Source of the DNA: Rhodobacter calidifons
Lineage (GTDB): Bacteria; Pseudomonadota; Alphaproteobacteria; Rhodobacterales; Rhodobacteraceae
Direction of reading: 5' to 3'
Length of the DNA stretch: 64,000 nucleotides
NCBI RefSeq assembly: GCF_011174775.1
Contig: NZ_JAANHS010000002.1
Span: 1 to 64,000, forward strand
Below, piece by piece: positions 6,933 to 47,057 of the stretch. The first letter of the stretch is position 1; every line of letters begins with the position of its first letter. The notes under the pieces are model-generated. The model made no database searches, was not told the DNA's origin, and worked only from the letters and a program-made list of their open reading frames with translations. The position numbers and the translations under genes are program-made.

Positions 6933-6936
6933 GCGG

Positions 6937-16973: not shown

Positions 16974-16980
16974 GGCCGGA

Positions 16981-17637
16981 ATGGACATCTCAACCGTCAG
17001 CTCTTCGATGTATGTCGCGCAGCAGTCCGCGGCGCCGTCGAAGATCACATCGGACTTCAATACCTTCCTGCGCATGCTGACGGTGCAGATGCAGAACCAG
17101 GATCCCTTGAAACCGATCGATTCCGCGGACTACGCGGTGCAGCTGGCGACCTTCTCGGGGGTCGAACAGCAGGTGCGGACCAACCAGCTGCTTGCCGATC
17201 TGCAAAGCAAGTTCCAGCAGCTGGGCCTGGCAGAGATGGCCGGCTGGGTCGGCAAGGAAGCCAGATCCAATGCGCCGGTGCTGTACGAAGGGAGCCCGAT
17301 AACCCTTTCGCCCAATCCCGCCGTCGGATCAGACCGGGCGGTACTCGTGGTGCGTGACAGTGCCGGCAGGCTGGTCTCTCGCGAGGAGATCCCCGTCAGC
17401 ATCGAGCCTTACCAGTGGCTTGGCGCCGGAATCGACGGCGCGCCGCTGCCGACGGGAACCTACACGATCACGCTGGAAAGCATGCGCGGCGATACACGGA
17501 TCGACGCCAGACCTGTCGAACACTACGCCCGCATCGTCGAGGCAAAGGGCAGCAGCACGGGAACCACACTGGTCCTGCGCGGCGGGATCGAAGTGCCGGC
17601 CTCCAGCGTGACGGCATTGCGAAGCCCGCAGGGATAG
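16981..17637 (+). CDS. flgD: Flagellar hook assembly scaffold FlgD
   Basis: A 218-residue hook-capping protein. The N-terminal motif 'FNTFLRMLTVQMQNQDPLKP' followed by 'FSGVEQQVRTN' is the FlgD signature, and the C-terminal half is the expected beta-rich domain. The start at 16981 is chosen from the conserved N-terminus. It is transcribed with fliK. FlgD caps the growing hook and is absent from the finished flagellum. Confidence 0.93.
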   Translation: MDISTVSSSMYVAQQSAAPSKITSDFNTFLRMLTVQMQNQDPLKPIDSADYAVQLATFSGVEQQVRTNQLLADLQSKFQQLGLAEMAGWVGKEARSNAPVLYEGSPITLSPNPAVGSDRAVLVVRDSAGRLVSREEIPVSIEPYQWLGAGIDGAPLPTGTYTITLESMRGDTRIDARPVEHYARIVEAKGSSTGTTLVLRGGIEVPASSVTALRSPQG

Positions 17638-32706: not shown

Positions 32707-33678
32707 TCACAGGGGATGGACGCGGCAGATGCCGGGCGCCTTGGGCGCGAAGGTCAGAGTGTTGCGCAGCGGTTGGCCGAAATCCGCGACTTCGATCTCG
32801 AAGATGTCGCCGGGTTCGGTCCTGATCCCGTCCGCAAAGGACAGGGTAGCTGTGCCGAAGAAGTGCACGTGCAGATCGCCCGGCTGGCGGAAGATGTCGT
32901 ACTTGAAGTGATGGTGTTCCAGATTGGCAAGGCTGTGCGACATGTTGGCCTCGCCCGACAGGAAGGGCTTTTCCCACAGCGTCTTGCCCTGCCGCAGGAT
33001 GCGGCTTTTCCCGCGCAGATCCGACGGAAGCGCGCCGACCAGGATTTCCGGCCCGAACGAGGCCACCCTCAGCTTGGAGTGCGCCAGCCAAAGATAGTTG
33101 ACCCGTTCGGTCACATGGTCCGAAAACTCGTTGCCCAGCGCCCAGCCGATCCGGTGCGGCGTTCCGTCCGGGCCGATCAGGTAGATGCCGGCAATCTCGG
33201 GCTCTTCGCCCCCGTCCTCGGCAAAGCCCGGGGCCTCAAGGGCTGCGCCCGGGGCGACCGCCGCGTGGCCGTTGCCCTTATAGAACCATTCCGGCTGCGC
33301 CCCGACCTCGCCTTCGGCAGGGCGGCCGCCCTCCAGGCCCATGCGGAACATCTTCATGCTGTCGGTCAGGGCTTCCGCGCCTTCCAGTGTGGCATGCATC
33401 GCATCGCGGGCTGCGGCGCTGCCCAGATGGGTCAGCCCCGTCCCGGTCAGGTGCAGATGCGCCGGGTCCGGATGGCTGACGGGCAGGTCGAACTCTGCCC
33501 GGGTCAGATCCACAGTCTCGCCCAGCCCGCGACGGGCGATCTCGGCCGCCAGACTCTGACCGGACCGGATAGCGGCGCCGGCCAGTTCATAGACCGAGGT
33601 GGTGTTGCGCAGGATGCGGGCATCAAGGCCCTCGCGCACGACGACCCCCGCGCCCCGGACGGTGGAAAGATGCAGCAT
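32707..33678 (-). CDS. gguC: GguC / AraD1-type 2-keto-3-deoxy-sugar-acid dehydratase
   Basis: A 323-residue protein of the fumarylacetoacetate-hydrolase-like family in which GguC and AraD1 fall. The start ATG is at 33678, 8 bases after gguB. Motifs such as 'PEWFYKGNGHAAVAPG' and 'GNEFSDHVTERVNYLWLAHSKLR' match this subgroup. AraD1 proteins convert 2-keto-3-deoxy-L-arabinonate to 2-oxoglutarate semialdehyde. A longer reading frame upstream is an artefact overlapping gguB. Confidence 0.82.
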   Translation of the reverse strand: MLHLSTVRGAGVVVREGLDARILRNTTSVYELAGAAIRSGQSLAAEIARRGLGETVDLTRAEFDLPVSHPDPAHLHLTGTGLTHLGSAAARDAMHATLEGAEALTDSMKMFRMGLEGGRPAEGEVGAQPEWFYKGNGHAAVAPGAALEAPGFAEDGGEEPEIAGIYLIGPDGTPHRIGWALGNEFSDHVTERVNYLWLAHSKLRVASFGPEILVGALPSDLRGKSRILRQGKTLWEKPFLSGEANMSHSLANLEHHHFKYDIFRQPGDLHVHFFGTATLSFADGIRTEPGDIFEIEVADFGQPLRNTLTFAPKAPGICRVHPL

Positions 33679-33686
33679 CGCCTGCC

Positions 33687-34856
33687 TCACTTGTTCTTGT
33701 TGTAGACATCGAAGATCACGGCGGCGAGCAGCACCAGACCCTTGATCATCTGCTGATAGTCGATGCCGACTCCCAGGATCGACATGCCCATGTTCATCAC
33801 GCCCATGATCAGCGCGCCGATCACCACGCCGATGATCTTGCCCGACCCGCCCGTCATCGAGGCTCCGCCGATGAAGACGGCGGCGATGGCATCCAGCTCG
33901 AACCCAGTCCCGGCCTTGGGCGTGGCCGAGTTCAGGCGCGCCGTCACCATCATCCCCGCCAGCGCCGCCAGCACGCCCATGTTGACGAAGCAGGCAAAGA
34001 CCAGCCGTTCGGTGTTGATGCCCGAAAGCTTGGCCGCCTTCTCGTTTCCACCGACGGCATAGATGCGCCGGCCCTGAACCGTATTCTCGGTGAAGAAGGC
34101 ATACAGCACGATCAGGATCGTCAGCACGACCAGCACGTTCGGCAGGCCGCGGAAGCTGGCCAGCTGCCAGCCCACAAAGGCCATGGCCGCGGCGATCACC
34201 AGCGTCCGGCCCCAGAACAGGCCCGCCGGCTCGGGCGTGATGCCGAATTCGGCGTCCCGTTTCCGCGCGCGCAGGCCGATCCAGACCACAAGGGCCATGG
34301 CCAGCGCCGCGATGATCAGGGTCAGCCCATGCGGCTTCATCACGCCGGTCAGGTCGGGAATGAAGCCCGAGGACATGGCCTGGAATTCCTTCGGGAAGGG
34401 GCCGATGTTCTGCCCGCCCAGAAGCCACAGCGTGGCGCCGCGGAACACCAGCATCCCGGCCAGCGTCACGATGAAACTGGGGATCCGCCAATAGGCCACC
34501 CAATAGCCCTGCGCGGCGCCGATCGCTCCGCCCACGATCAGGGTCAGCGGGATCACGACATAGATCGGTTGTTTCAGCTGGACGGTCAGATAGGCCGCGA
34601 CCGCCCCGGTGAAGGCCGCGACGGACCCGACCGACAGGTCGATATGACCCGAGACGATGATCAGCAGCATCCCCAGCGCCAGGATGATGACATGCCCGTT
34701 CTGAAGAAAGATGTTGGTGATGTTCGGCGCCTGCAGGAACATCGGCTTGCCCTGCATCGACACCAGCACCGAGAACAGCACCACGATCGCGACCAGCGCG
34801 AGAAGCATCCCGTTTTCGCGCAGGTGCCCGCCCAGAGAACCTTGCTTGTCAGCCAT
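33687..34856 (-). CDS. gguB: Multiple-sugar ABC transporter permease GguB
   Basis: A 389-residue monosaccharide-type permease with about 10 hydrophobic segments and the 'GHIDLSVGSVAAFTGAVAAYL' motif of sugar (ribose/xylose class) permeases. The C-terminus 'DYQQMIKGLVLLAAVIFDVYNK' is typical of GguB/XylH. Its start codon abuts the gguA stop. It works with GguA and ChvE. Confidence 0.9.
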   Translation of the reverse strand: MADKQGSLGGHLRENGMLLALVAIVVLFSVLVSMQGKPMFLQAPNITNIFLQNGHVIILALGMLLIIVSGHIDLSVGSVAAFTGAVAAYLTVQLKQPIYVVIPLTLIVGGAIGAAQGYWVAYWRIPSFIVTLAGMLVFRGATLWLLGGQNIGPFPKEFQAMSSGFIPDLTGVMKPHGLTLIIAALAMALVVWIGLRARKRDAEFGITPEPAGLFWGRTLVIAAAMAFVGWQLASFRGLPNVLVVLTILIVLYAFFTENTVQGRRIYAVGGNEKAAKLSGINTERLVFACFVNMGVLAALAGMMVTARLNSATPKAGTGFELDAIAAVFIGGASMTGGSGKIIGVVIGALIMGVMNMGMSILGVGIDYQQMIKGLVLLAAVIFDVYNKNK

Positions 34857-36398
34857 TCACGCCACCTTCCCTGTGGTCTTGCCATTGTCCTTGACGATCA
34901 GCGCCATGATCCGCTCCTGGCTCGCCTCCCCGCGCGCCAGCTCGCCGACGATCCGGCCCTCGTTCATCACATAGATCCGATCGCACATGCCCAGCAGTTC
35001 GGGCATTTCCGACGAGATCATCAGAACGCCGCGGCCCTGGTCGGCCAGATCCTTCATGATCGTGTAGATCTCGAACTTCGCGCCCACGTCGATGCCGCGC
35101 GTGGGTTCGTCCAGGATCAGGAGCTCCGGGTCGGTGAACAGCCATTTCGACAGCACCACCTTCTGCTGGTTGCCCCCCGACAGGTTCACCACCTTCTGCT
35201 GCACGCCCGGCGTGCGGATCGCCAGTTGCTTGCGGTAGGTCTCGGCCACCTGCGCCTCGCGCCGCTTGTCCAGAACCGACCGACGGGCGATACCGGCCAG
35301 ATTGGCCAAGCTGATGTTCTTCAGGATCGGCTCTTCCAGGATCAGGCCCAGCGCCTTGCGGTCCTCGGTGACATAGGAAATGCCGGCCTGGATCGCCTTG
35401 GTCACGGTCGAGACATCGACCGGGCGCCCGTGCATCTTCACCGTGCCCTGGTGCCCCTTGCCATAGCTTCGACCGAAGATCGACATGGCAAGCTCGGTGC
35501 GGCCCGTTCCCATCAGCCCGGCGATGCCGACGATCTCGCCCTTGCGGACGTTCAGACTGACCCCCTTGATCATCTGCCGCCCCGCCTGTTCGGGGTGCCA
35601 GCAGGACCAGTTCTCGACCTCGAACAGCATTTCGCCCGGATGGCTGTCGCGCTCGGGGTAGCGATGCGCCATGTCGCGGCCGACCATGTCCTTGATGATG
35701 CGGTCCTCGGAAATCTCTGCCTTGGTCAGGGTCGAGACCGAGGTGCCGTCGCGGATCACGGTGATCCGGTCGGCGACGCGGGAAATCTCGTTCAGCTTGT
35801 GGCTGATGATGATCTGGGTCACGCCGCGCGCCTTCAGCTCCAGCATCAGGTCCAGCAGCCGGTCGGCATCGGCCTCCTGCAACGCGGCGGTGGGCTCGTC
35901 CAGGATCAGAAGGCGCACGTTCTTCGACAGCGCCTTCGCGATCTCGATCAACTGCTGCTTGCCGACGCCCAGCTTGCCGACCACCGCGCCGGGGGGTTCG
36001 TTCAGACCCACCTGCCGCAGCAGCTCCCCGGTCTTCTTGAAGGCCATGGGCCAGGAGATCACGCCCTTCGACGCCACCTCGTTGCCCAGAAACAGGTTTT
36101 CGGCGATCGACAGAAGCGGGATCAGCGCAAGTTCCTGGTGGATGATGATGATGCCCTTGTGCTCGCTGTCGCGGATCCCGCGGTTGCGCAGGGGCTGGCC
36201 GTCATAGACGATCTCGCCGTCATAGCTGCCATGCGGATAGACACCCGACAGCACCTTCATCAACGTGGATTTTCCGGCCCCGTTCTCGCCGCAGATGGCG
36301 TGGATTTCCCCGGCCTCGACCGTCAGGCTGACCCGGTCAAGCGCTTTCACGCCCGGGAAGACCTTGCTGATCTCCCGCATTTCCAGAAGTATCGACAT
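34857..36398 (-). CDS. gguA: Multiple-sugar ABC transporter ATPase GguA
   Basis: A 513-residue fusion of two ABC domains. Domain 1 has GENGAGKST and 'LGVGKQQLIEIAKAL' with 'LLILDEPTAAL'. Domain 2 has the degenerate P-loop 'GLMGTGRTELA', then 'LSGGNQQKVVLSKWL' and 'LLILDEPTRGIDVGA'. This double build is the rule for ribose/galactose/xylose-class importers. The one-domain ATPase in the moc set at 45249-46016 contrasts with it. Confidence 0.93.
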   Translation of the reverse strand: MSILLEMREISKVFPGVKALDRVSLTVEAGEIHAICGENGAGKSTLMKVLSGVYPHGSYDGEIVYDGQPLRNRGIRDSEHKGIIIIHQELALIPLLSIAENLFLGNEVASKGVISWPMAFKKTGELLRQVGLNEPPGAVVGKLGVGKQQLIEIAKALSKNVRLLILDEPTAALQEADADRLLDLMLELKARGVTQIIISHKLNEISRVADRITVIRDGTSVSTLTKAEISEDRIIKDMVGRDMAHRYPERDSHPGEMLFEVENWSCWHPEQAGRQMIKGVSLNVRKGEIVGIAGLMGTGRTELAMSIFGRSYGKGHQGTVKMHGRPVDVSTVTKAIQAGISYVTEDRKALGLILEEPILKNISLANLAGIARRSVLDKRREAQVAETYRKQLAIRTPGVQQKVVNLSGGNQQKVVLSKWLFTDPELLILDEPTRGIDVGAKFEIYTIMKDLADQGRGVLMISSEMPELLGMCDRIYVMNEGRIVGELARGEASQERIMALIVKDNGKTTGKVA

Positions 36399-36462
36399 TC
36401 TTCCTCCCGCTGGCGGAACCTGCCTGCGCGGGAGCGGCGCAGGCAGGCCCTGTCAGATCAGC

Positions 36463-37533
36463 CTACTTCAGCTGGTCCGCCGTGTAGTAGCCCGAACCGA
36501 CAAGAACTTCCTCGTAGTTCGAGATGTCCACCGAAACCGGCTCCAGCAGATAGGACGGCACGACCTTGACGCCGTTGTCGTAAGTCGAAGTATCGTTGAT
36601 CTCGGGTTCACCGCCGCCAAGGACCGCATCCACCATCTTGACGGTGACCTTTGCCAGTTCGCGGGTGTCCTTGAAGATCGTCGAATACTGCTCTCCGGCG
36701 ATCATCGACTTGACCGAGGGGATCTCCGCATCCTGACCGGTGACGATCGGCATGGGCAGATCGCCCGAACCATAGCCGACACCCTTGACCGACGACAGGA
36801 TGCCGATCGACAGCCCGTCATAGGGCGACAGCACGCCATGCAGCTGCTTGTCGCCGTAGTTCGAGGTCAGCAGGTTGTCCATCCGCGCCTGGGCGACTGC
36901 GCCATCCCAGCGCAGGGTGCCGACCACGTCCATGCCCATCTGGCCCGAGGGGATCACGATGTCGCCCGCGTCGATCAGCGGCTGTAGGACCGACATCGCG
37001 CCGTTGTAGAAGAAGAACGCGTTGTTGTCGTCGGGCGAGCCGCCGAACAGCTCGACATTCCACGGCTTCACATCCGGGAAACGCTCCTTGAGACCCTTGA
37101 CCAGGCTTTCCGCCTGCTGCACGCCGACCTTGAAGTTGTCAAAGGTGGCGTAATAGTCCACCGACCCGCTTTCTCGGATCAGGCGGTCATAGGCAATGAC
37201 CTTGATGCCCTGCGCGGCGGCGTTGTCCAGCGCGTTCGACAGCGTGGTGCCGTCGATGGCCGCGATGACCAGTGCCTTGACCCCGCTGGTGATCATGTTC
37301 TCGATCTGGTTCAGCTGGGTCGGGATATCGTCTTCGGCATATTGCAGGTCGGTGGCATAGCCGGCCTCCTGGAACGCCTTGACCATCGATTCCCCGTCCG
37401 AGATCCAGCGCGACGAGGATTTGGTGGGCATGGCAATGCCGATGGTGCCCTTGTCCTGGGCAAAAAGCGGCATTGCCGAAAGGGCGGCGGTGGCGCCGGT
37501 CAGGGCCATGAGGCCACGGCGGGTCAAGATCAT
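36463..37533 (-). CDS. chvE: Sugar-binding periplasmic protein ChvE
   Basis: A 356-residue type I binding protein. The ATG at 37533 follows GGGAGG. The signal peptide '[20 protein letters not shown]' carries twin arginines and cleaves near 'PLFA|QDKG'. The mature part has the ChvE pattern ('[16 protein letters not shown]', '[18 protein letters not shown]'). ChvE binds several monosaccharides; in Agrobacterium it also informs virulence and chemotaxis. It heads the leftward chvE-gguA-gguB-gguC operon and a 58-base gap precedes gguA. Confidence 0.92.
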
Positions 37534-37673
37534 CTTGTTTCCTCCCGATGATTCTTCTTTGCATCCGATCTGGGCGTGCCTTTGCTGCCCTTGCACACGG
37601 ACGCAGCGCAGATTGCGCAGCAGATCCATATCTGTCAAATAGACGTTGTGCGATGAAACATGGCTAAATCGTT

Positions 37674-38606
37674 ATGAATATCACCGAGACCGGCCTTGCA
37701 ACGCAGCTGCGACGGCTCAAGCCTGCGCAATTGCGCCTGCTGGCCGAACTGGACGACACGGGCGCCCTCGGTCTTGCGGCGGCCAGGATCGGAATTGCGC
37801 AACCGGCCGCCTCGCGGCTGCTGGCCGACATGGAGGCGACGCTTGGCCTGTCGCTGCACGAACGCCACGGCCGCGGGTTGCAGCTGACAGTCGTTGGCCG
37901 TGCCCTGGCCCGGCGCGCCGCCCGGATCGAGATCGAACTGGCCGATGCCGCGCGCGATCTGGCCGAGGCCGCCACCGGGCGGGCGGGCGTCGTGCGGGTC
38001 GGCGCGGTGACCGGCCCGGCGCTCAGCCTGGTGATGCCGACGCTGATCACACTGCAATCCGATCTGCCCGACTTCCGCGCCGAGGTGACGGTGGCGACCT
38101 CGGTGACCCTGTGCGAGCTTCTGCGCGCGGGTCGGCTGGACTTTGCGCTTGCACGCCTGTCGCCCGGCGAAAGCCAGCTCGAGGCGCATGTGCTGGCGGT
38201 TGAGCCGCTGTCGCTTGTGGTGCGACGCGGACACCCGCTGCTGGTGCGCCCGATCCTGTCGCTTGACGATCTCCTGGGCTTCGACTGGGTCATGGGCGAC
38301 GACGAGACGCTGCTGACCCAGACCGTCCTGACCCGCCTGACGGAGCTGGGCCTGCCGCAGCCGAAGCGGCGGATCTCGACGTCCTCTTTCCTGTTCACGC
38401 TGGCGCTGCTGAACCAGACCGACGCCATCGCGCCGCTGGCAACCCCGGTCGTTGACAGCCTTGCGGGCAACCCCTCCGTGCCCTTCGTCTCGTTGCCGAT
38501 CGACCTTGGCCTGGCAGTCGCCCCGTTCAGCCTGGTGACCCGGATCGGGTCGCAGATGACGCCATCGGCCCAGCGCCTGGCCGACGCGGTGCTGGCCGCA
38601 GCCTAG
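37674..38606 (+). CDS. gbpR: LysR-family regulator, GbpR-like
   Basis: A 310-residue LysR regulator with HTH 'LRRLKPAQLRLLAELDDTGALGLAAARIGIAQPAASRLLADMEATLG' and a sugar-binding-like co-inducer domain. It is divergent from chvE across a 140-bp promoter gap, the position of GbpR, the galactose-binding-protein regulator of Agrobacterium. It is the likely activator of chvE-ggu and the pentose operon. A GCGCA-3-TGCGC inverted repeat at 37606-37618 is a possible site. Its stop shares CTAG with the convergent panB-like stop. Confidence 0.82.
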   Translation: MNITETGLATQLRRLKPAQLRLLAELDDTGALGLAAARIGIAQPAASRLLADMEATLGLSLHERHGRGLQLTVVGRALARRAARIEIELADAARDLAEAATGRAGVVRVGAVTGPALSLVMPTLITLQSDLPDFRAEVTVATSVTLCELLRAGRLDFALARLSPGESQLEAHVLAVEPLSLVVRRGHPLLVRPILSLDDLLGFDWVMGDDETLLTQTVLTRLTELGLPQPKRRISTSSFLFTLALLNQTDAIAPLATPVVDSLAGNPSVPFVSLPIDLGLAVAPFSLVTRIGSQMTPSAQRLADAVLAAA

Positions 38607-39400
38607 GCATTGCGATCCAGCCAGTCGGCAAAGGCCGAAACGACATCGGCGTCGCAATCCACAAGGTGCTGCGGCGCGGGATAGTCGCCCGCATGAACAT
38701 CGGCAACGTAGCGCCCCATGGCCTCGATCCGCATCCTCTGCAACCGGTCCTGTTCGGCCGCGAAGTCGGCATAGACCTTGGCGTGCCGGGGGATCCGGCC
38801 GCGGTTCTGGCCCAGGACGTCATCGGCGAACAGATACTGCGCATGCCCGCCCGCCCCCGCCCCCATCGAGATCAGGAAAAGGTCTGTCCGTTCCGCGATC
38901 AGGCGGGTGATGGAATGGGGGACGACCTCGATCTCCACGGCAAAGGCCCCGGCTTCTTCCAGCGCCCGGCACTGGCGCCAGACAAGCTGCGCCGTCTCAA
39001 GCGTCTTGCCGACCGCCTTGAACCCGCCGGTCCAGGTACGTTTCGCGGGGATCAGGCCGACATGGCCGCAGACCGGCAGCCCGTGGTCCGCCATCGCACG
39101 GACGGTCGCCAGCGCGCCGGAGCAGTATAAGGCGTCCGCCCCGTGCTTGAACAACGGGAAGGCCCAGCGCAGGAAGTCGTCCGTCCCGCCGATCTCGTAG
39201 AAATTGTCGCCGGGGAAGATGAAGGCATCGGGCGCCACCTCGCGGAAACGGCGGTCGAACACCATTGCGGGCGGGACAGACAGAAGCTCGACGCCGGCCT
39301 TCGCTGCGGCCTCGGCTTCCTCCAGCGACTCGACCCGCAGCATGGCGAAAGGATGCCTGCCCCGCTGGTCCAGCAGATCCCGCACGGTGGGCGGCGCCAT
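38603..39400 (-). CDS. PanB-like protein (ketopantoate hydroxymethyltransferase fold, divergent)
   Basis: A 265-residue TIM-barrel protein of the PanB superfamily. Landmarks are 'VCGHVGLIPAKRTWTGGFKAVGK', 'AGAFAVEIEVVP' (the position of the PanB catalytic Glu) and 'ISMGAGAGGHAQYLF'. The Mg-ligand Asp in the VGDS motif and the Lys in the KIEGG motif of E. coli PanB seem absent ('LLSVPPAMV' and 'DALYCSGA' instead). It therefore probably does not make ketopantoate. Its start shares one base with the mocE stop, so it belongs to the mocD-mocE operon. A one-carbon-acceptor role is a hypothesis. Confidence 0.7.
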   Translation of the reverse strand: MAPPTVRDLLDQRGRHPFAMLRVESLEEAEAAAKAGVELLSVPPAMVFDRRFREVAPDAFIFPGDNFYEIGGTDDFLRWAFPLFKHGADALYCSGALATVRAMADHGLPVCGHVGLIPAKRTWTGGFKAVGKTLETAQLVWRQCRALEEAGAFAVEIEVVPHSITRLIAERTDLFLISMGAGAGGHAQYLFADDVLGQNRGRIPRHAKVYADFAAEQDRLQRMRIEAMGRYVADVHAGDYPAPQHLVDCDADVVSAFADWLDRNA

Positions 39401-39711
39401 CACGCGACCTCGACAAGGACGCGGCCGCCTTCGACCCTGACGGGGAAGGTGCGCAGGTTCACGCAGACCGGCGCGCGCTTCGCCTCGCCCGTGCGATAGT
39501 CGAACTGGCCGTTGTGCTTGGGACATTCGATCAGGTGCCCCATCACCAGCCCGTCGCAGAGATGGACCTGCTCGTGCGTGCACAGACCCGCCGTGGCAAA
39601 GAACTCTCCCTCAGGCGAATGGTAGATCGCGAAGGTCTGTCCGCCATGATCCCAGCGGATCAGGTCTTCGGCGTCGATGTCCTCCGTCGCGCAGGCGTCA
39701 ATCCAGGGCAT
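39400..39711 (-). CDS. mocE: MocE-type Rieske ferredoxin
   Basis: A 103-residue Rieske [2Fe-2S] protein with ligands Cys44-His46 ('GLCTHEQVHLCDG') and Cys63-His66 ('ECPKHNGQF'). It is soluble, with no signal peptide. It would pass electrons to the membrane oxygenase upstream. In rhizobia mocD, mocE and mocF act together in removing the methyl group of 3-O-methyl-scyllo-inosamine. No ferredoxin reductase (mocF) is present in the window. Confidence 0.9.
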   Translation of the reverse strand: MPWIDACATEDIDAEDLIRWDHGGQTFAIYHSPEGEFFATAGLCTHEQVHLCDGLVMGHLIECPKHNGQFDYRTGEAKRAPVCVNLRTFPVRVEGGRVLVEVA

Positions 39712-39720
39712 GTCGGGTCC

Positions 39721-40812
39721 TCATTCTGCGGCGGCCGGGCGCATCATCCCCGGCACGTACTGGTGGAAGTCCTCGCGGTAGGGCCTGGCCGTCGGCGGCA
39801 GGTCGCGCTTGATGAAATAGTCCTCGTTCACCACCTGGCGCCTGATCGCGGGCCACATCTCGGCAAACGCTTCGGCGATGGAACGGTTGGGCGGGGGCAG
39901 GTCGTCCTTGATGACCTCGTGCAGGCGCGGAAGGGCGTGGTAGGGCACCATCGGGAACATGTGGTGTTCGACATGGTAATTCATGTTCCAGTAGATGAAG
40001 CGGGAAATCGGGTTCATGTAGACCGTGCGGCTGTTCAGGCGGTGGTCCACCACGTTGTCGGCAAGGCCCCCATGCTGAAGCAGCCCGGTCATCACATGGT
40101 GCCAGGCGCCGTACATCCGGGGCAGGCCGATCACCATCAGCGGCAGGATCGACCCCAACCAGAGCGCAAGGCCAAGGGTTGCCGCGTAGATCGACAGATG
40201 GATGATGGCGACGCGCTGCACCTTGCCCCATTCGCTTTGCGGCACGAAGGTCTTCTCCGCAGCCGTCGGGCCGGAAAGCGCGTTCCGGATCAGGGTCGGA
40301 AAGAACCTGATCACGTCCAGGATACCGAAGAAGTTCAGAAACAGCTTCGCCAGTTCGGGCGGGCGCATGACGGCGATTTCGGGGTCGCGGCCGACGATGT
40401 AGGTTTCCGAATGGTGCCGTGCATGGCTCCAGCGCCAGGTGGCCGAGTTGCGCATGATCATGAAGCTGGCGATCTCGTAGACGAGGGTGTTCATCCAGGG
40501 CGTCCGGAACGCGGTGCCATGGCCGCATTCGTGCCAGCGCGAATCGGAGGCCGAACCGTAGAGGACGCCATAGGCCAGCCAGAACGGCGCCGACCACCAG
40601 GACGGCCACAGTGCGATGCCGATGCCCGCAAGCAGGATCATGCTGCCATAAAGGATCACCGTGTCACGGATCGCCGGCCCGTCACTGCGCGCCATCAGCT
40701 CCTTCATCACCTTCCGCGGCACCTCGCTGTGATACCATTCCGCCGCCGTCAGCCCGCTTTCGACCGCGCGTTTGGCGTCGGGGCCGAAAGGACTGTAGTT
40801 GCGCTTTGCCAT
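39721..40812 (-). CDS. mocD: MocD-type membrane di-iron oxygenase (desaturase fold)
   Basis: A 363-residue integral-membrane enzyme. The ATG at 40812 follows AGGAGG. His boxes for the di-iron site are HxxxH (His94, His98), HxxHH (His130, His133, His134) and HxxHH (His280, His283, His284). Hydrophobic spans lie at about 52-70, 76-88 and 205-232. The fatty-acid desaturase/alkane hydroxylase fold with an adjacent Rieske gene matches rhizobial MocD. Substrate is inferred from the moc context; a lipid or alkane role is an alternative. Confidence 0.82.
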   Translation of the reverse strand: MAKRNYSPFGPDAKRAVESGLTAAEWYHSEVPRKVMKELMARSDGPAIRDTVILYGSMILLAGIGIALWPSWWSAPFWLAYGVLYGSASDSRWHECGHGTAFRTPWMNTLVYEIASFMIMRNSATWRWSHARHHSETYIVGRDPEIAVMRPPELAKLFLNFFGILDVIRFFPTLIRNALSGPTAAEKTFVPQSEWGKVQRVAIIHLSIYAATLGLALWLGSILPLMVIGLPRMYGAWHHVMTGLLQHGGLADNVVDHRLNSRTVYMNPISRFIYWNMNYHVEHHMFPMVPYHALPRLHEVIKDDLPPPNRSIAEAFAEMWPAIRRQVVNEDYFIKRDLPPTARPYREDFHQYVPGMMRPAAAE

Positions 40813-40909
40813 ATCAGCCTCCTGCCTCCCTGGTCCTAGGGGTGAAGCCACCCTGCGCCCTCGTGGATAAGGCAGCCGGAAACGGATCGCCAAGAACCCG
40901 GCTTGCAGG

Positions 40910-40962
40910 TTTCGTCAAGATCCGTCATCCTTCGGCAGCTTTCTGATGGTTTTTCGTCATCC
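40910..40962. promoter_or_regulatory. Repeated TTTCGTCA / CGTCATCC elements in the mocD/lacI promoter
   Basis: The 153-bp gap between mocD and the LacI gene holds TTTCGTCA at 40910-40917, CGTCATCC at 40923-40930 and TTTTCGTCATCC at 40951-40962. The nonamer TTTTCGTCA recurs in inverted orientation (TGACGAAAA, 41996-42004) just downstream of the LacI gene, in front of mocC. These shared elements are good candidates for the binding site of the LacI-family protein. Confidence 0.45.
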
Positions 40963-40965
40963 AAA

Positions 40966-41997
40966 ATGGCAAACCGGCCCACGATCAACGATGTCGCCCG
41001 CGAGGCAGGCGTGTCCAGCGCGACCGTGGACCGCGTGCTGAACGGGCGCGAAAGGGTGCGGGAGGAAACCGCCCGCAAGGTCTATGAGGCGGCACGGCTC
41101 ATCGGCTACCATGCCGCGCCGCTGATCGGGCAGAGGGTGCAGGCCGACCTTCCCCGGCTGCGGCTTGGCCTTGTGCTGCACAAGGAGCGGCAGGCCTTCT
41201 ATCAGGCCTTCAAGGCCGAGGCCGAGCGGGCCGTGACCCAGGCGACCGGGGTCCGTGCAAGCCTTCAGGTGGCTTTCGCCGCGTCACAGTCGCCCAGGGA
41301 CTTCACCGAGCTGATGGAGGGGATGGCCGGCCGCGTCGATGCCGTTGCCGCCACTGCCGTGACCCATCCCGAGGTGACAGAGGCGGTGGTGCGGCTGAAC
41401 GCCAGGGGCATCCCCTGCTTTTCGCTGCTGAACGACTTTGGCCAGGGTGTCAGACAAAACTATCTGGGACTCAACAACTTGAAGGTCGGGCGCATTGCAG
41501 CACACATGATTGCGACCGCCGCGCACCACGCGGGAAAGATCGCCGTCTTTGTCGGCGGCTACCGCTGGCACGGGCACGAGCTGCGGGAAACAGGCGTGCG
41601 CAGCTATTTCCGTGAACACGCACCGCAGTTCCAGGTGCTGGATACGCTCATCAACCTTGAGACGCGGCAGCTGACCTACGAGGCGACGCTGGACCTTCTG
41701 TCCCGCCATCCCGACTTGCGCGGCATCTACTGTGCGGGCGGCGGGATGGAGGGGGCCATTGCCGCTGTACGCGAGGCCAGGGCCCCCGGCGAGGTGGCCC
41801 TGGTCGTGAACGAACTGACGCCGGAAAGCCGCGCGGCCCTGATCACGCGGCATGTGACCATGGTGATCGCCACGCCGCTTCAGCGGCTTTGCAACGATCT
41901 CATCCGGCTGGCGACCGAGGCGGTGACCGAAGGCATGGTCCCCGTCCAGGGCCAGCATTTCCTGCCTCCGGACATCTACCTGCCCGAAAGCGTCTGA
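40966..41997 (+). CDS. LacI-family transcriptional regulator
   Basis: A 343-residue LacI regulator with N-terminal HTH 'TINDVAREAGVSSATVDRVLNGR' and a sugar-binding-protein-like effector domain of about 270 residues. The ATG at 40966 is chosen from the HTH; no strong ribosome site precedes it. It lies between mocDE and mocC and probably represses both sides. The effector is probably the transported cyclitol or sugar. Confidence 0.9.
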   Translation: MANRPTINDVAREAGVSSATVDRVLNGRERVREETARKVYEAARLIGYHAAPLIGQRVQADLPRLRLGLVLHKERQAFYQAFKAEAERAVTQATGVRASLQVAFAASQSPRDFTELMEGMAGRVDAVAATAVTHPEVTEAVVRLNARGIPCFSLLNDFGQGVRQNYLGLNNLKVGRIAAHMIATAAHHAGKIAVFVGGYRWHGHELRETGVRSYFREHAPQFQVLDTLINLETRQLTYEATLDLLSRHPDLRGIYCAGGGMEGAIAAVREARAPGEVALVVNELTPESRAALITRHVTMVIATPLQRLCNDLIRLATEAVTEGMVPVQGQHFLPPDIYLPESV

Positions 41998-42035
41998 CGA
42001 AAATCAATCATCGCTCTGCGTGATCATTCGTCAGA
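41993..42035. promoter_or_regulatory. Inverted repeat between the lacI gene and mocC
   Basis: TCTGACGA at 41993-42000 and TCGTCAGA at 42028-42035 are perfect inverted arms 27 bases apart. The left arm contains the LacI stop codon and extends into TGACGAAAA, also found in the mocD/lacI promoter. The gap up to mocC (42127) is 129 bp and carries a GGGAGG ribosome site at 42114-42119. Confidence 0.45.
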
Positions 42036-42126
42036 GATGATGGGAACGCCCCGCAACGGATTGACGCGGCGGGAGAGTCTCGCGGATGGTCCGGCCCAGG
42101 AAATCGCCGCGGTTGGGAGGCCGGGA

Positions 42127-42933
42127 ATGATCCAGTTTGCGTTGAACCACATGACCGTGGCCCGCATGTCCTTCCGTGACCTCGTGGCGCTGGCGAAACA
42201 GCTTGGCTGTGTCGGGATCGAGGTACGGAACGACCTGCCCCAGCCGCTGTTCGACGGGATGGAGCCGGCCGCGGGCGGTGCGCTTGTCCGCGAGAACGGC
42301 CTGCGCCTTCTGGCGGTGGCCGAGGTGAAGCGCTTCAACGACTGGTCGTCGGACAGGGAGGCCGAGGCGCTGGCGCTGATACGGATCGCCAGGGCAGCCG
42401 GAGCCGAGGCGGTCAGCCTGATCCCGCGCAACGACAATCTCGGCATGGGCAATGGCGAACGCCAGGCAAATCTGCGCGTGGCGCTGAAGGCGCTGAAGCC
42501 GATGCTCGAGGATCACGATCTGGTCGGCATGGTCGAACCCCTGGGCTTCGAGACCTGCGCGCTGCGCTACAAGGCCGAAACGGTCGAGGGGATCGAGGCG
42601 GTCGGCGGCCGGGGCCGGTTCAAGCTGGTCCACGACACCTTTCACCACACGCTGGCCCATGGCGGGCCGCTGTTCCCGGATCATACCGGCATCGTCCATG
42701 TCTCGGGCGTGGTGGATCAGCAGGTCGGGATCAGCGAGATGCGCGACCCGCATCGGGTGCTGGTGACGCCGGGCGACCGGCTGGGCAACCTGGACCAGAT
42801 CACCGCGTTGCAGGCGGCGGGCTGGGTCGGCCCGGTGAGCTTCGAGGCGTTCTCGGCGGAGGTTCATGCCCTTGCAGACCCCGCCAGCGCGCTGCGGTCC
42901 AGCATGGATCACATTGCGAATGTCCACGCATGA
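42127..42933 (+). CDS. mocC: MocC-like sugar isomerase/epimerase (TIM barrel)
   Basis: A 268-residue xylose-isomerase-like TIM barrel. The start at 42127 follows GGGAGG. Its N-terminus 'MIQFALNHMTVARMSFRDLV' and internal 'LVHDTFHHTLAHGGPLF' and 'GIVHVSGV' resemble MocC of the rhizopine pathway and IolI/IolE-like proteins. The metal ligands are expected among Glu in 'VEPLGFE', Asp in 'VHDTFHH' and His in 'IVHVSG'. It likely isomerises or dehydrates a keto-inositol. It reads rightward from the LacI gene. Confidence 0.8.
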   Translation: MIQFALNHMTVARMSFRDLVALAKQLGCVGIEVRNDLPQPLFDGMEPAAGGALVRENGLRLLAVAEVKRFNDWSSDREAEALALIRIARAAGAEAVSLIPRNDNLGMGNGERQANLRVALKALKPMLEDHDLVGMVEPLGFETCALRYKAETVEGIEAVGGRGRFKLVHDTFHHTLAHGGPLFPDHTGIVHVSGVVDQQVGISEMRDPHRVLVTPGDRLGNLDQITALQAAGWVGPVSFEAFSAEVHALADPASALRSSMDHIANVHA

Positions 42934-42939
42934 TCGTCT

Positions 42940-42955
42940 TTGCAACCTGTTGCAA
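42940..42955. promoter_or_regulatory. LacI-type palindrome upstream of mocB
   Basis: TTGCAACCTGTTGCAA at 42940-42955 is a 16-bp palindrome with one mismatched central pair. The size and symmetry suit a LacI-family operator. It stands 6 bases after the mocC stop and 130 bases before mocB, where a promoter for the transporter operon would be expected. Confidence 0.5.
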
Positions 42956-43085
42956 GAATCGGTTGACCGGGGCGCGGCAGCGGCTCGGTCTGAACTGACG
43001 AATGGCTGCGACAGGCGGGAAGCGCGTCGCGGCATGGAATTGAACCGCTGTAACGGACAGCGGACAATAACGGGAGGAGTGACCC

Positions 43086-44027
43086 ATGAAGAAGACCCTT
43101 ATCGCCACAGGCTTCGCCGCGCTGATGACCACGACCGCCATGGCGGACGGAATCGGCGTGTCGATGGCGCTGTTCGATGACAACTTCCTGACCGTCCTGC
43201 GCAACGGCATCCAGAAGACCGCGGATGAACGGGGACTGAAGGTCCAGATCGAGGACGCGCAGAACGACGTGGCCAAGCAGCTGGACCAGATCAACAATTT
43301 CATCGCCTCGGGCGTTGACGCGATCATCGTGAACCCGGTCGATACCTCGGCCACCCAGGCCATGTCGGACGCCGCCGCTGCCGCCGGCGTGCCCCTTGTC
43401 TATGTGAACCGTCAGCCGATCAACGTGGACAGCCTGCCCGACAACCAGGCCTTCGTCGCCTCGAACGAAAGCGAATCCTCGCGCCAGGGCTTCATCGAGC
43501 AATGCAATCAGTGGAAGGCGGCCGGCAAGGAAGAGGTCAGTGTCTATGTCATGCAGGGCGAGCTGTCGAACCAGGCCGCCGTGCAGCGCACGCAGAACTA
43601 TTATGATGTGATGAACGAGGGGCTCTGCGCGGTGAAGGTCAACGTGATCGACCAGCAGACCGCCAACTGGTCGCGGGATCAGGCGCAAAGCCTGATGACC
43701 AACTGGCTTTCCACCGGCACCCCGTTCGACGGCGTCCTTGCCAACAACGACGAGATGGCGCTTGGTGCGATCCAGGCGATGAAGGCCGCCGGGATCGACA
43801 TGGGCTCGGTCATCGTCTCGGGCGTCGATGCGACCCAGGACGCGCTGGCCTCGATGCAGGCCGGGGAACTGGACATCACCGTGTTCCAGAACGCGGCGGC
43901 CCAGGGCAGCGGCGCGCTGGATGCGGCGGTCAAGCTGGCTGCGGGCGAGGCGGTGGACCAGAAGGTCTATATCCCGTTCGAACTGGTGACGCCGGCGAAC
44001 ATCGACGCCTACCTGACGAAGAACTAA
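43086..44027 (+). CDS. mocB: ABC transporter sugar/cyclitol-binding protein, MocB type
   Basis: A 313-residue periplasmic binding protein with signal peptide MKKTLIATGFAALMTTTAMA before Asp21. The type I fold pattern is present ('FDDNFLTVLRNGIQKTADERG', 'INNFIASGVDAIIVNPVDTSAT', 'ANNDEMALGAIQAMKAAG'). It resembles MocB and inositol-binding proteins. A GGGAGGAG ribosome site lies just upstream. It would deliver the substrate to the permease and ATPase downstream. Confidence 0.88.
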   Translation: MKKTLIATGFAALMTTTAMADGIGVSMALFDDNFLTVLRNGIQKTADERGLKVQIEDAQNDVAKQLDQINNFIASGVDAIIVNPVDTSATQAMSDAAAAAGVPLVYVNRQPINVDSLPDNQAFVASNESESSRQGFIEQCNQWKAAGKEEVSVYVMQGELSNQAAVQRTQNYYDVMNEGLCAVKVNVIDQQTANWSRDQAQSLMTNWLSTGTPFDGVLANNDEMALGAIQAMKAAGIDMGSVIVSGVDATQDALASMQAGELDITVFQNAAAQGSGALDAAVKLAAGEAVDQKVYIPFELVTPANIDAYLTKN

Positions 44028-44046
44028 GCCCCTTCCGGGCACCTCA

Positions 44047-44076
44047 GGGGCGGCCGGCGACGGTCGCCCCGCTTTT
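44047..44076 (+). terminator. Attenuating hairpin between mocB and the permease gene
   Basis: GGGGCGGCCG at 44047-44056 pairs fully (one G-T) with CGGTCGCCCC at 44061-44070 around a GCGA tetraloop, followed by GCTTTT. It looks like a partial terminator that keeps the binding protein more abundant than the membrane parts. Confidence 0.7.
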
Positions 44077-44133
44077 CTGTTGCAGGTGGGGCACATCGGC
44101 CAGCCTTGTTGAATTCTGGGGAGGGACGGCAAC

Positions 44134-45246
44134 GTGGCAGAAGCAACGCATGGCCTTGGCGGCCTGAAATACGACCCGGCAAAGCGCACCCGTGCGCCGG
44201 AATGGAACGTGTTCGGCGCGCTGGTCCTGATCATTGTGATCTTCGAGATCCTGAACCGCATGCAGGGCGGCTCGTTCCTCTTCAACATGCGCGACAATGT
44301 GGACGCGATCTTCAACAAGCAGCGGCTGGACATCATGATCCTTCAGGTCGCGATCATCGGGATCATCGCCCTGGGGGTGACGCAGGTCATCATCATCGGC
44401 GGCATCGACCTGTCCTCTGGGTCGGTCGTGGGCGCGACGGCGATGATCGTGATGAGCTTTGCCCAGACCGCCACGGTCAACGGCAACCCCAACCCCAAGG
44501 CGATCTTCGGCGATTGGGCGATGGATCTGCCGGTGATCGTGCCGATTGCCATAGGCCTTGCCTGCGGACTTTTGGCCGGGCTTATCAACGGCTTGCTTGT
44601 GGCCTACACCAGAATTCCGCCCTTCATCGCCACGCTGGGGATGATGGTCTCGGCGCGCGGTGTTGCGCGCTGGTGGTCCAACGGCCAGCCGGTCAGCTTT
44701 CCGACTGCCGAATACGGCCAGCTGGCCAACGGCGATCTTCTTGGCGGAATGACCTTCGGTCTCCTCACCTGGCCAGGCCAGAACCCTGCCGTGGTCTTCG
44801 TCCTGCTGGCCGTGCTGTTCCACGTCATCATGACCAAGACGCTTTATGGCAAGCGCTGCTATGCCATCGGCTCGAACGAGGCGGCCGCGCGGATGTCCGG
44901 GATCAACGTCGACCGCCACAAGGTGCTGGTCTATGCCATCGCCGGTCTCCTGGCGGCGGTTGCGGCGGTGCTTCTCACCTCGAAGAACCTTACCGCGCAG
45001 GCCGGGATGGGGGTGATGTACGAACTCGACGCCATCGCGATGGCGGTGATCGGGGGCGTGTCGCTGGCCGGTGGGCGCGGGTCGATCCTTGGCACGGTTC
45101 TGGGTGCCGCGATCTTCTCCGTCATCATCTCCGGCTTCACGTCGATCAAGCTGGACGCCTACTACCAGGAGATGGTCAAGGGCGCGATCATCGTGGGCGC
45201 CGTGGTGCTGGACCAGTGGCGTCAACGCAAGCGGGCAAGGGGGTAG
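44134..45246 (+). CDS. Sugar/cyclitol ABC transporter permease
   Basis: A 370-residue permease of the ribose/xylose/inositol class. It starts at a GTG behind GGGAGGG. The 'IGGIDLSSGSVVGATAMIVMSFAQ' motif and the C-terminal 'KLDAYYQEMVKGAIIVGAVVLDQWR' are typical. About nine membrane segments are visible. The ATPase gene begins 2 bases after its stop. Confidence 0.9.
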   Translation: MAEATHGLGGLKYDPAKRTRAPEWNVFGALVLIIVIFEILNRMQGGSFLFNMRDNVDAIFNKQRLDIMILQVAIIGIIALGVTQVIIIGGIDLSSGSVVGATAMIVMSFAQTATVNGNPNPKAIFGDWAMDLPVIVPIAIGLACGLLAGLINGLLVAYTRIPPFIATLGMMVSARGVARWWSNGQPVSFPTAEYGQLANGDLLGGMTFGLLTWPGQNPAVVFVLLAVLFHVIMTKTLYGKRCYAIGSNEAAARMSGINVDRHKVLVYAIAGLLAAVAAVLLTSKNLTAQAGMGVMYELDAIAMAVIGGVSLAGGRGSILGTVLGAAIFSVIISGFTSIKLDAYYQEMVKGAIIVGAVVLDQWRQRKRARG

Positions 45247-45248
45247 TC

Positions 45249-46016
45249 ATGTCGAAGATCATTCTGGAAACCCGCGGCCTGACCAAGCATTACGGCGGCG
45301 TCCATGCGCTGGAAGATGCGAATTTCATCCTGCATGACGGCGAGCATGTCGCCGTCGTGGGCGACAACGGCGCGGGGAAATCCACCTTCGTGCGCCAGGT
45401 GACGGCGGTGGAACAACGCACCTCCGGCGAGATCATCTTCGACGGCCAGCCGGTGCATTTCTCGGGGCCGCTCGAGGCGCGGCAGGCCGGGATCGAGACG
45501 GTGTTCCAGACGCTGGCGCTTGCCGATGATCTGGACGTGCCGTCGAACCTGTTCCTGGGGCGCGAGCTGTTCAAGTTCCGTCTCGGCCCGTTTTCCTGGC
45601 TGGACCGCAAGACGATGCGCGACCGGACGCTCGAGGCGCTGAAGACGACGGCGGTGAAGATCCCCAACATCGACAACCCGATCCGCAACATGAGCGGGGG
45701 CCAGCGCCAATGCGTGTCCATCGCACGGACGGCAGCCTTTGCGTCCAAGCTGGTGATCATGGACGAGCCGACGGCGGCGCTGGGGGTGCAGGAGACGGCG
45801 CAGGTCGAGAACATCATCCGCGGCCTGAAGGACCGGGGCATTCCGATGATCCTGATTTCCCACAACCTCCGGCAGGTCTTCGATCTGGTGGATCGGATCG
45901 TCGTTTTTCGCCGGGGTCGCATCGTCGCCTCCTTGCGGAAGGACGAGACCGACGGCAACGACATCGTCAGCTACATCACCGGCGTGAAGGGTGGTTCGGA
46001 CACCGCCTATGCCTGA
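45249..46016 (+). CDS. Single-domain ABC transporter ATPase
   Basis: A 255-residue ATPase with one ABC domain: GDNGAGKST, signature 'MSGGQRQCVSIART', Walker B 'KLVIMDEPTAALG' and 'LISHNLRQVFDLVDRI'. Many sugar importers of this permease class use a double ATPase, but single-domain forms occur and dimerise. It starts 2 bases after the permease and precedes mocA by 39 bases. Confidence 0.9.
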   Translation: MSKIILETRGLTKHYGGVHALEDANFILHDGEHVAVVGDNGAGKSTFVRQVTAVEQRTSGEIIFDGQPVHFSGPLEARQAGIETVFQTLALADDLDVPSNLFLGRELFKFRLGPFSWLDRKTMRDRTLEALKTTAVKIPNIDNPIRNMSGGQRQCVSIARTAAFASKLVIMDEPTAALGVQETAQVENIIRGLKDRGIPMILISHNLRQVFDLVDRIVVFRRGRIVASLRKDETDGNDIVSYITGVKGGSDTAYA

Positions 46017-46055
46017 CAGTGGAAAGCCGGGGTCGGCCCGGGACAAGGAGAAAAA

Positions 46056-47057
46056 ATGACGATCAGGTTCGGGCTTCTGGGTGCGGGGCGCATCGGGAAG
46101 GTGCATGCGAAGGCGGTGACGGGGAACCCGGGCGCGCGGTTGGTGGCGGTGTCGGATGCGATGCCGGCAGCGGCGCAGGCGGTTGCGGATCAGTATGGTT
46201 GCGAGGTGCGGACCATCGAGGCGATTGCGGCGGCCGGGGACATCGACGCGGTGGTGATCTGCACGCCGACCGATACCCATGCCGACCTGATCGAGCAGTT
46301 CGTGAAGGCCGGCAAGGCGGTGTTCTGCGAAAAGCCGATCGACCTGAGCCTCGCCCGCGTGAAGCAGTGCCTGGAGGTCGTCCGCGCCCACAACGGCACG
46401 CTGATGGTTGGCTTCAACCGCCGTTTCGACCCGCATTTCCGGGCGGTGCGGGGCGAGATCGACAAGGGGACCATCGGAGCGGTGGAGATGGTGGTCATCA
46501 CCAGCCGCGACCCGGGGGCGCCTCCGGTCGATTACATCAAGCGGTCGGGCGGGATCTTCCGGGACATGACGATCCATGACTTCGACATGGCCCGGTTCCT
46601 GCTGGGCGAGGAGGTCTCCGAGGTCTCGGCGATGGCTTCGGTGCTGGTCGATCCCGAGATCGGCCAGGCGGGGGACAGTGACTCGGTCCAGGTGATGCTG
46701 AAGACGGCCTCGGGGAAGATGGCGGTGATCTCGAACAGCCGCCGGGCGACCTATGGCTACGACCAGCGGATCGAGGTGCATGGGTCCGGCGGGATGGTGG
46801 CGGCCGAGAACCAGCGGCCCGTCAGCATCGAGGTGGCCACCGGGGCGGGCTATACCCGGCCGCCGTTGCATGACTTCTTCATGACCCGCTATACCGAGGC
46901 CTACGCGGCCGAGATCGCGGCCTTCATCGATGCGATGGCGGGGAAGGCCAAGGCGCAGCCTTCGGGGGAGGATGGGCTGGCGGCGCTCGCCCTCGCCGAG
47001 GCGGCCTTGAAGTCGGTCGCCGAGGGGCGGGTGGTGAAGATGAGCGAGATCCTGTGA
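46056..47057 (+). CDS. mocA: Inositol 2-dehydrogenase / MocA-like oxidoreductase
   Basis: A 333-residue Gfo/Idh/MocA enzyme. Rossmann motif 'FGLLGAGRIGKVHAKAV', EKPIDL motif, and 'GGIFRDMTIHDFDMARFLLGEE' with the catalytic Asp-His typical of inositol dehydrogenases (IolG) and MocA. It would oxidise a cyclitol or amino-cyclitol to its ketone with NAD+. It ends the operon. Confidence 0.9.
   Translation: MTIRFGLLGAGRIGKVHAKAVTGNPGARLVAVSDAMPAAAQAVADQYGCEVRTIEAIAAAGDIDAVVICTPTDTHADLIEQFVKAGKAVFCEKPIDLSLARVKQCLEVVRAHNGTLMVGFNRRFDPHFRAVRGEIDKGTIGAVEMVVITSRDPGAPPVDYIKRSGGIFRDMTIHDFDMARFLLGEEVSEVSAMASVLVDPEIGQAGDSDSVQVMLKTASGKMAVISNSRRATYGYDQRIEVHGSGGMVAAENQRPVSIEVATGAGYTRPPLHDFFMTRYTEAYAAEIAAFIDAMAGKAKAQPSGEDGLAALALAEAALKSVAEGRVVKMSEIL

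Follow-up and report, generated by a model that had tools for sequence, protein, structure and literature searches.

A probable O-methyl-inositol gene block in Rhodobacter calidifons and a divergent PanB-like family that accompanies oxygenase genes

The first 64,000 nucleotides of contig NZ_JAANHS010000002.1 of Rhodobacter calidifons (assembly GCF_011174775.1; host genome 3.62 Mb), hereafter termed the window, contain between positions 38603 and 47057 a divergently arranged gene block: mocD, mocE and a gene for a PanB-like protein follow one another on the minus strand, and lacI, a triosephosphate isomerase (TIM)-barrel gene, the genes for a binding protein, a permease and an ATPase, and iolG follow on the plus strand (Table 1). 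Judged by its gene content, it is most likely a module for O-methyl-inositols and not a rhizopine locus, and its substrate is best read as a methyl-inositol of the pinitol or ononitol type. We consider it probable that this substrate is imported, O-demethylated by MocD and MocE and oxidized by IolG, and propose that the one-carbon (C1) unit is transferred to tetrahydrofolate (THF) by the PanB-like protein. The block itself is of a known kind; the new element is the PanB-like family. The genes that a sequence-only reading of the window had listed for this region are present, but that list overlooked the PanB-like gene.

A divergent PanB-like family

The PanB-like protein falls short of the ketopantoate hydroxymethyltransferase (PanB) model TIGR00222 (Table 1), and the same genome encodes a true PanB on contig C22. 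Thirty-two PanB-like sequences were aligned with 20 true PanB sequences and numbered according to Escherichia coli PanB. The two groups share a sequence family, and His136, Glu181 and Asp217 are kept in all 32 PanB-like rows; Asp84, Lys112 and Glu114, however, are lost in every one of these rows and Asp45 in 30 of them (L056 and L065 keep it), whereas each of these four residues is kept in 19 or 20 of the 20 true PanB rows. The window protein has P, G, Y and S at positions 45, 84, 112 and 114, respectively. We take Asp45, Asp84 and Glu114 to be the metal ligands of PanB and Glu181 to be its catalytic base, and the first three together with Lys112 presumably make up its metal and substrate residues. 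In addition, a deletion of about 19 residues (positions 49 to 67) marks at least 31 of the 32 PanB-like rows, and the invariant residues new to this family include E156, H206 and R224 in the numbering of the window protein. In the tree, the PanB-like and true PanB proteins separate at 100/100 support and on long branches. Because active-site residues are lost and the clade is separate, ketopantoate synthesis by the PanB-like protein is unlikely; these results suggest that the vitamin B5 synthesis label, which 23 of the 25 PanB-like records listed carry, is wrong for the subfamily.

Oxygenase partners of the PanB-like genes

A search of 398 Pseudomonadota genomes found PanB-like matches at 1e-40 or better in 19 of them, which yielded 25 loci, that of the window included; part of this sample also contributed to the 80 mocD loci described below, which makes the two samples dependent on each other. 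Each locus, spanning 2.5 to 3.8 kb, was examined for the marker genes, namely those for MocD, MocF, a Rieske protein of the MocE type and an oxygenase of the FA_hydroxylase type. Markers were present at 21 of the 25 PanB-like loci versus none of 19 true panB loci. One of the latter belongs to the window's own genome; 18 were taken from 14 of the remaining 18 genomes, as four gave no true PanB at 1e-60. L142 and L143 were counted through their Rieske gene; in both, the same run of genes ends about 7 kb away with an FA_hydroxylase-type oxygenase gene. L150 and L151 hold MocD relatives of only 31–33% identity. Among the four loci without a marker, L132 lies near a contig edge, L139 is a partial match, and L134 has an adjacent IolG gene and a Rieske ring-hydroxylating oxygenase gene about 3 kb off; the fourth, L138, is weighed below.

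The oxygenases beside some PanB-like genes are PF04116 proteins (FA_hydroxylase, "sterol desaturase family") that give no significant blastp match to MocD. Seven plasmid loci (L118, L119 and L198 to L202), hand-picked from more distant PanB-like matches, were opened, and all seven pair a PanB-like gene with an oxygenase of this type, as confirmed by Pfam for L118 and L119 and by record annotation for the other five. A ferredoxin gene and a gene for a flavin adenine dinucleotide-dependent oxidoreductase are also adjacent in four of the seven (L118, L119, L199 and L200); other neighbours include hydroxyproline-type enzymes, all below their cut-offs, in L118 and a ribokinase in L119, L199 and L200. 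The PanB-like proteins with a PF04116 partner do not form one clade in the tree, in which L118 and L119 stand apart both from L154 and L155 and from L146 and L147, so the oxygenase pairing has probably been switched more than once. Since the PanB-like proteins partner unrelated oxygenases in differing neighbourhoods, their target is more likely a C1 product common to these oxygenases than the ring. On a Phaeobacter inhibens plasmid (L201, 4343-6825), an inositol oxygenase family gene, a sterol desaturase family oxygenase gene and the PanB-like gene are consecutive.

No link of PanB to moc genes or to demethylation was recognised in the literature searched. The words panB and hydroxymethyltransferase are absent from the main text of PMC10107442, PMC5789663 and PMC3538637, and the word purU from that of the first two.

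Relation to known moc gene clusters

The window block most resembles the FixV/Msi119/mocDEF arrangement of rhizobia. Several rhizobia have a mocD operon with a divergent gene for a LacI regulator that resembles FixV of Mesorhizobium loti, and in some an Msi119-type epimerase gene is adjacent (PMC3538637). The authors inferred an inositol derivative as the signal and still termed mocDEF rhizopine genes (PMC3538637). Sinorhizobium meliloti 1021 carries such a set, SM_b20817 to SM_b20820 (PMC11387232); the window's LacI protein shares 56% identity with the one divergent from mocD there, and the two MocD proteins share 72%. A PanB-like gene follows the mocF gene SM_b20820 of this strain (L003, 10857-11654), and Rhizobium johnstonii 3841 has one as well (L086, 12112-12921). 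The window likewise has lacI divergent from mocD-mocE and, by gene order, a TIM-barrel epimerase gene downstream of lacI. It differs from the published clusters in its Rhodobacterales host, in having no mocF in the block, and in having its own ATP-binding cassette (ABC) importer and IolG there. In Rhizobium mesoamericanum, mocDEF homologues were up 1.53–2.11-fold in Mimosa root exudate, of which pinitol was the top component (145 uM), and the authors attributed this induction to rhizopine (PMC5789663). We differ from them in reading pinitol as the likelier cause of this induction.

Rhizopine-type loci were represented by two plasmid loci of Rhizobium indicum (L114 and L115), in which mocR, mocD, mocE, mocF, a PanB-like gene and purU are consecutive. 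The MocR protein of L114 passes the model NF052281 (739 versus 650 bits), and its MocA and MocB were named by position. Identities of the window proteins to those of L114 are 66% for MocD, 61% for MocE, and 57% each for the binding protein and the PanB-like protein. The window thus shares mocD, mocE, a related binding protein and the PanB-like gene with these loci, but its block lacks mocR, mocF and purU, its regulator belongs to the LacI family, IolG replaces MocA, and its TIM-barrel protein is a different one. The MocD- and MocE-like genes of the sequence-only reading were borne out, the former by its FA_desaturase domain and its identities to both rhizobial proteins, and the latter by passing the MocE model. 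The "MocC-like isomerase" holds at superfamily level alone, as the protein gives no blastp match to the iolE/MocC candidate of L114 at E 1e-3, and of "MocA/IolG-like" the IolG half stands and the MocA half does not (28% identity to the positional MocA). The absence of mocF was also correct for the block; a ferredoxin reductase of 46% identity to MocF is encoded elsewhere, on contig C33. As for the substrate that had been claimed, import of an O-methylated cyclitol and its demethylation remain best supported, whereas rhizopine was rejected on the absence of MocR and MocA from the block and the LacI-type regulator.

The rhizopine-binding protein model NF052284 (cut-off 420 bits) was tried as a marker of rhizopine loci and discarded: 7 of 394 genomes passed it, yet neither binding protein of L114 does (6285-7214 and 16493-17506; 39.8 and 138 bits, the first being that beside MocR). 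The window protein scores 41.9 bits, and none of the eight 3.9 kb loci retrieved through NF052284 contains a match to MocD, MocE or MocF; this model may describe another system. A search of Rhizobium pisi found a single MocD, of the LacI type.

Distribution of the mocD module

A scan for MocD gave at least 593 pattern matches, 573 of which, among the matches listed, are MocD relatives, and the best 80 loci were kept; many of them carry Rhodobacterales names, and the remainder are mostly from Rhizobiales. Counted with early contig ends scored as misses, these 80 loci contain mocE in 79, a LacI gene in 75, a PanB-like gene in 61, the TIM-barrel gene in 57, the binding-protein gene in 51, the permease gene in 47, mocF in 38, IolG at 60% identity or more in 31, purU in 10, iolC in 4, iolE in 3 and iolB in 2. 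The recurrence of mocE and the LacI gene argues that the block is not a chance association, and mocDEF is in these terms a widespread module. Where present, the PanB-like gene is the match that comes next in the same orientation, with a gap of 3 to 149 bases to the preceding mocE or mocF match, and no recurring substitute gene was found in the 19 loci without it. Directly behind the PanB-like gene lies purU in L114 and L115, both of the rhizopine type, and in L005 iolC comes after iolG. Among 100 neighbourhoods scanned for formaldehyde genes, frmA was found in two (L060 and L066) and fhs in none. One locus, L034, has MocD and MocE by themselves; outside the Pseudomonadota, Paenibacillus cellulosilyticus (Bacillota; L116, 9001-12000) has mocD, mocE and mocF homologues at 51–59% identity and no PanB-like match.

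Inositol and C1 genes elsewhere in the genome

The reading had placed the lower inositol route elsewhere in the genome, and a genome search agreed: contig C4 carries iolB, iolE and a fused iolC/aldolase gene, each passing its model, together with an open frame that occupies the iolD position. A second group near 246 kb of contig C22 comprises an iolC gene that passes its model and an iolB-like gene that falls short of the cut-off. The IolG model TIGR04380 matched 11 proteins of the genome, of which the window IolG alone is over the cut-off. The genome also encodes FrmA (598.5 versus 543.95 bits) and formate-THF ligase.

Proposed pathway and alternative explanations

In the proposed pathway, the ABC transporter would import an O-methylated inositol, and MocD, a putative membrane di-iron monooxygenase, would hydroxylate the methyl group, drawing electrons from MocE, a Rieske ferredoxin, and from a ferredoxin reductase encoded elsewhere. 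The resulting hemiacetal would yield inositol and a C1 unit at the level of formaldehyde; inositol would be oxidized by IolG and passed on to the iol genes on another contig, and an inositol derivative may act through the LacI protein to control both divergent operons. The C1 unit would be moved onto THF by the PanB-like protein to give methylene-THF, and in some relatives PurU would release it as formate. A methyl-inositol is favoured as the substrate because MocD and MocE are close to their counterparts in a locus whose MocR is genuine, because the published neighbourhoods of LacI, epimerase and mocDEF genes were tied to an inositol derivative (PMC3538637), because mocDEF homologues rise in pinitol-rich exudate (PMC5789663), and because the only over-cut-off IolG lies in the block, iolB, iolE and iolC are in the genome, and IolG recurs in the mocD loci.

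The C1 role is proposed because the PanB-like gene is present in most of the 80 loci and in 10 of 10 purU loci, because all seven plasmid loci pair it with an oxygenase, and because markers attend 21 of 25 PanB-like loci and none of 19 true panB loci. PurU acts on 10-formyl-THF and its product is formate; since it acts on this substrate and adjoins the PanB-like gene, C1 units are suggested to reach folate at the purU loci. A precedent for demethylation onto THF is the nicotine operon purU-mabO-folD, for which formaldehyde is named as the PurU product (PMC3891541). This system shares with the present one a methyl-derived C1 unit on THF and, in some relatives, an adjacent purU; MABO, however, is an oxidase that makes methylene-THF itself (PMC3891541), whereas here a membrane di-iron oxygenase and a separate PanB-like protein would divide the work. 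Methylene-THF is a substrate of the family to which PanB belongs, and free formaldehyde can serve as well (PMC7770189, PMC7610986). In a review, formaldehyde capture by THF is called spontaneous, whereas Fae and Gfa speed its capture by other carriers, tetrahydromethanopterin and glutathione (PMC8879981); the PanB-like protein, with THF as its proposed carrier, is likened to them by role, as an accelerator of formaldehyde capture. We propose tentatively, and with considerable doubt, that it is a dedicated THF-dependent C1-capturing enzyme (methylene-THF synthase), a partner of two unrelated membrane di-iron demethylase families across Alphaproteobacteria and the folate counterpart of Fae and Gfa. 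If so, an enzyme would be assigned to a step described as spontaneous (PMC8879981), and it would be useful for work on demethylation pathways in lignin or methylotrophy.

Several observations weigh against this explanation. The folate site of the PanB-like proteins is a putative one, and most of the PanB metal and keto-acid residues are gone from them. Of the 70 mocD loci whose downstream sequence reaches 2.8 kb or more, 54 have the PanB-like gene and 16 lack it; its absence in some lineages fits a helper role without proving it. One PanB-like locus (L138; L152) has no visible oxygenase gene in 15.5 kb of sequence. PurU was not found in the window's genome, where the best match reaches 53 bits over 97 of 293 residues, and the link between PurU and the PanB-like protein is statistically weak (one-sided Fisher p 0.055, uncorrected for kinship). 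With FrmA in the genome, formaldehyde could go to glutathione. Finally, in L004, L038 and L061 the neighbours of MocD include aldose epimerase or sugar ABC genes, and its substrate class may be wider than cyclitols.

The last observation favours an O-methylated sugar as the substrate in place of a cyclitol, with a general oxygenase module borrowed by various sugar clusters, and chvE, an ABC ATPase gene and an AraD1-type gene adjoin both the window cluster and L061; we regard this as unlikely, given that the window module shares its block with the sole over-cut-off IolG of the genome, that IolG of at least 60% identity recurs among the 80 loci, and that iolC follows iolG in L005. True catabolism of rhizopine (3-O-methyl-scyllo-inosamine), as in S. 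meliloti L5-30, could account for the similarity of MocD, MocE and the binding protein to those of a locus whose MocR is over its cut-off, but is very unlikely in a block with LacI in place of MocR and IolG in place of MocA, the more so as S. meliloti 1021 has the same LacI type.

Other alternatives concern the PanB-like protein. It may operate without folate, either as an aldolase joining free formaldehyde to a metabolite or on the demethylated ring product, and this we hold to be rather unlikely: PanB works as a folate-free aldolase on free formaldehyde, but this chemistry uses a divalent metal (PMC7610986), and the metal-site residues are mostly lost in the PanB-like proteins; action on the ring product fits poorly with pairing to two oxygenase families that are unrelated and whose surroundings differ. 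C-methyl inositols are found in algae, and the oxygenase might hydroxylate a C-methyl or other group, after which a retro-aldol reaction of the PanB-like protein would remove the hydroxymethyl group onto THF (C-demethylation of branched cyclitols). The PanB reaction in reverse would indeed be a dehydroxymethylation; we nevertheless judge this scheme extremely improbable, since the metal-site residues are mostly missing and mocDEF of rhizopine loci serves an O-methyl compound (PMC10107442, PMC3538637). The methyl-inositol explanation differs in its substrate from the interpretation of mocDEF as a rhizopine trait in PMC10107442, PMC3538637 and PMC5789663.

Features of the block and its surroundings

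Table 1. Features of the gene block, with positions in the window
Feature	Positions	Strand	Basis
PanB-like protein (proposed C1 acceptor)	38603..39400	-	PF02548 119.9 bits, C-terminal part only; TIGR00222 87.2 versus cut-off 207.55
MocE, Rieske ferredoxin	39400..39711	-	TIGR02377 167.9 > 136.15 bits; CxH...CxxH motif
MocD, membrane di-iron oxygenase (FA_desaturase fold)	39721..40812	-	PF00487 137 bits; conserved histidines
Operator-like repeats TGAYG/CRTCA	40902..40962		Divergent mocD-lacI promoter region; partial conservation in alignment
LacI-family regulator, FixV-like by position	40966..41997	+	PF00356, PF13407; 56% to S. meliloti 1021 LacI
TIM-barrel sugar epimerase/isomerase, Msi119-like by position	42127..42933	+	PF01261 58.7 bits; nearest solved chains 4hgx, 2q02
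Sugar-binding protein, MocB-like	43086..44027	+	PF13407 170 bits; 57% to positional MocB of L114
ABC permease	44134..45246	+	PF02653 158.7 bits
ABC ATPase, single domain	45249..46016	+	PF00005 94.7 bits
IolG, inositol 2-dehydrogenase	46056..47057	+	TIGR04380 432.3 > 355 bits; alone over cut-off among 11 genome matches

The start codon of the PanB-like gene overlaps the mocE stop codon in the sequence TGATG, and because of this overlap the two are probably translated together. Histidines 94, 98, 130, 133, 134, 280, 283 and 284 of MocD are kept in 87 of 87 aligned homologues, and the protein is 90% identical to MocD of Tabrizicola aquatica, which bears out the Rhodobacterales host named in the sequence-only reading; a lipid desaturase appears unlikely, the top NCBIfam match, DesB, reaching 44.1 of 500 bits. 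The operator-like repeats were compared in 13 aligned sequences (the window and 12 chosen relatives). A sigma-70 promoter scan gave 0 matches and is uninformative, as shuffled sequences averaged 1.0.

The single-domain ABC ATPase of the block is matched in several rhizobial clusters by a long ATPase (517 amino acids in L007), which indicates that similar modules are served by two transporter types. The cluster is adjoined at 32725-38606 by chvE (542 > 460 bits against its model), ABC ATPase and permease genes, and AraD1-type and LysR-like genes, the last two named by reading. In Aminobacter (L061), relatives of the ATPase, ChvE and AraD1 (63–73% identity) also adjoin mocDEF, and this locus has no PanB-like gene. 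In another genome of the same family (L133; L157, 7507-9413), mocD and a PanB-like gene without mocE lie near genes resembling secB, dnaQ and aroE, some of them named by reading; the spot resembles that of the window, where secB, dnaQ, coaE and aroE come after the cluster.

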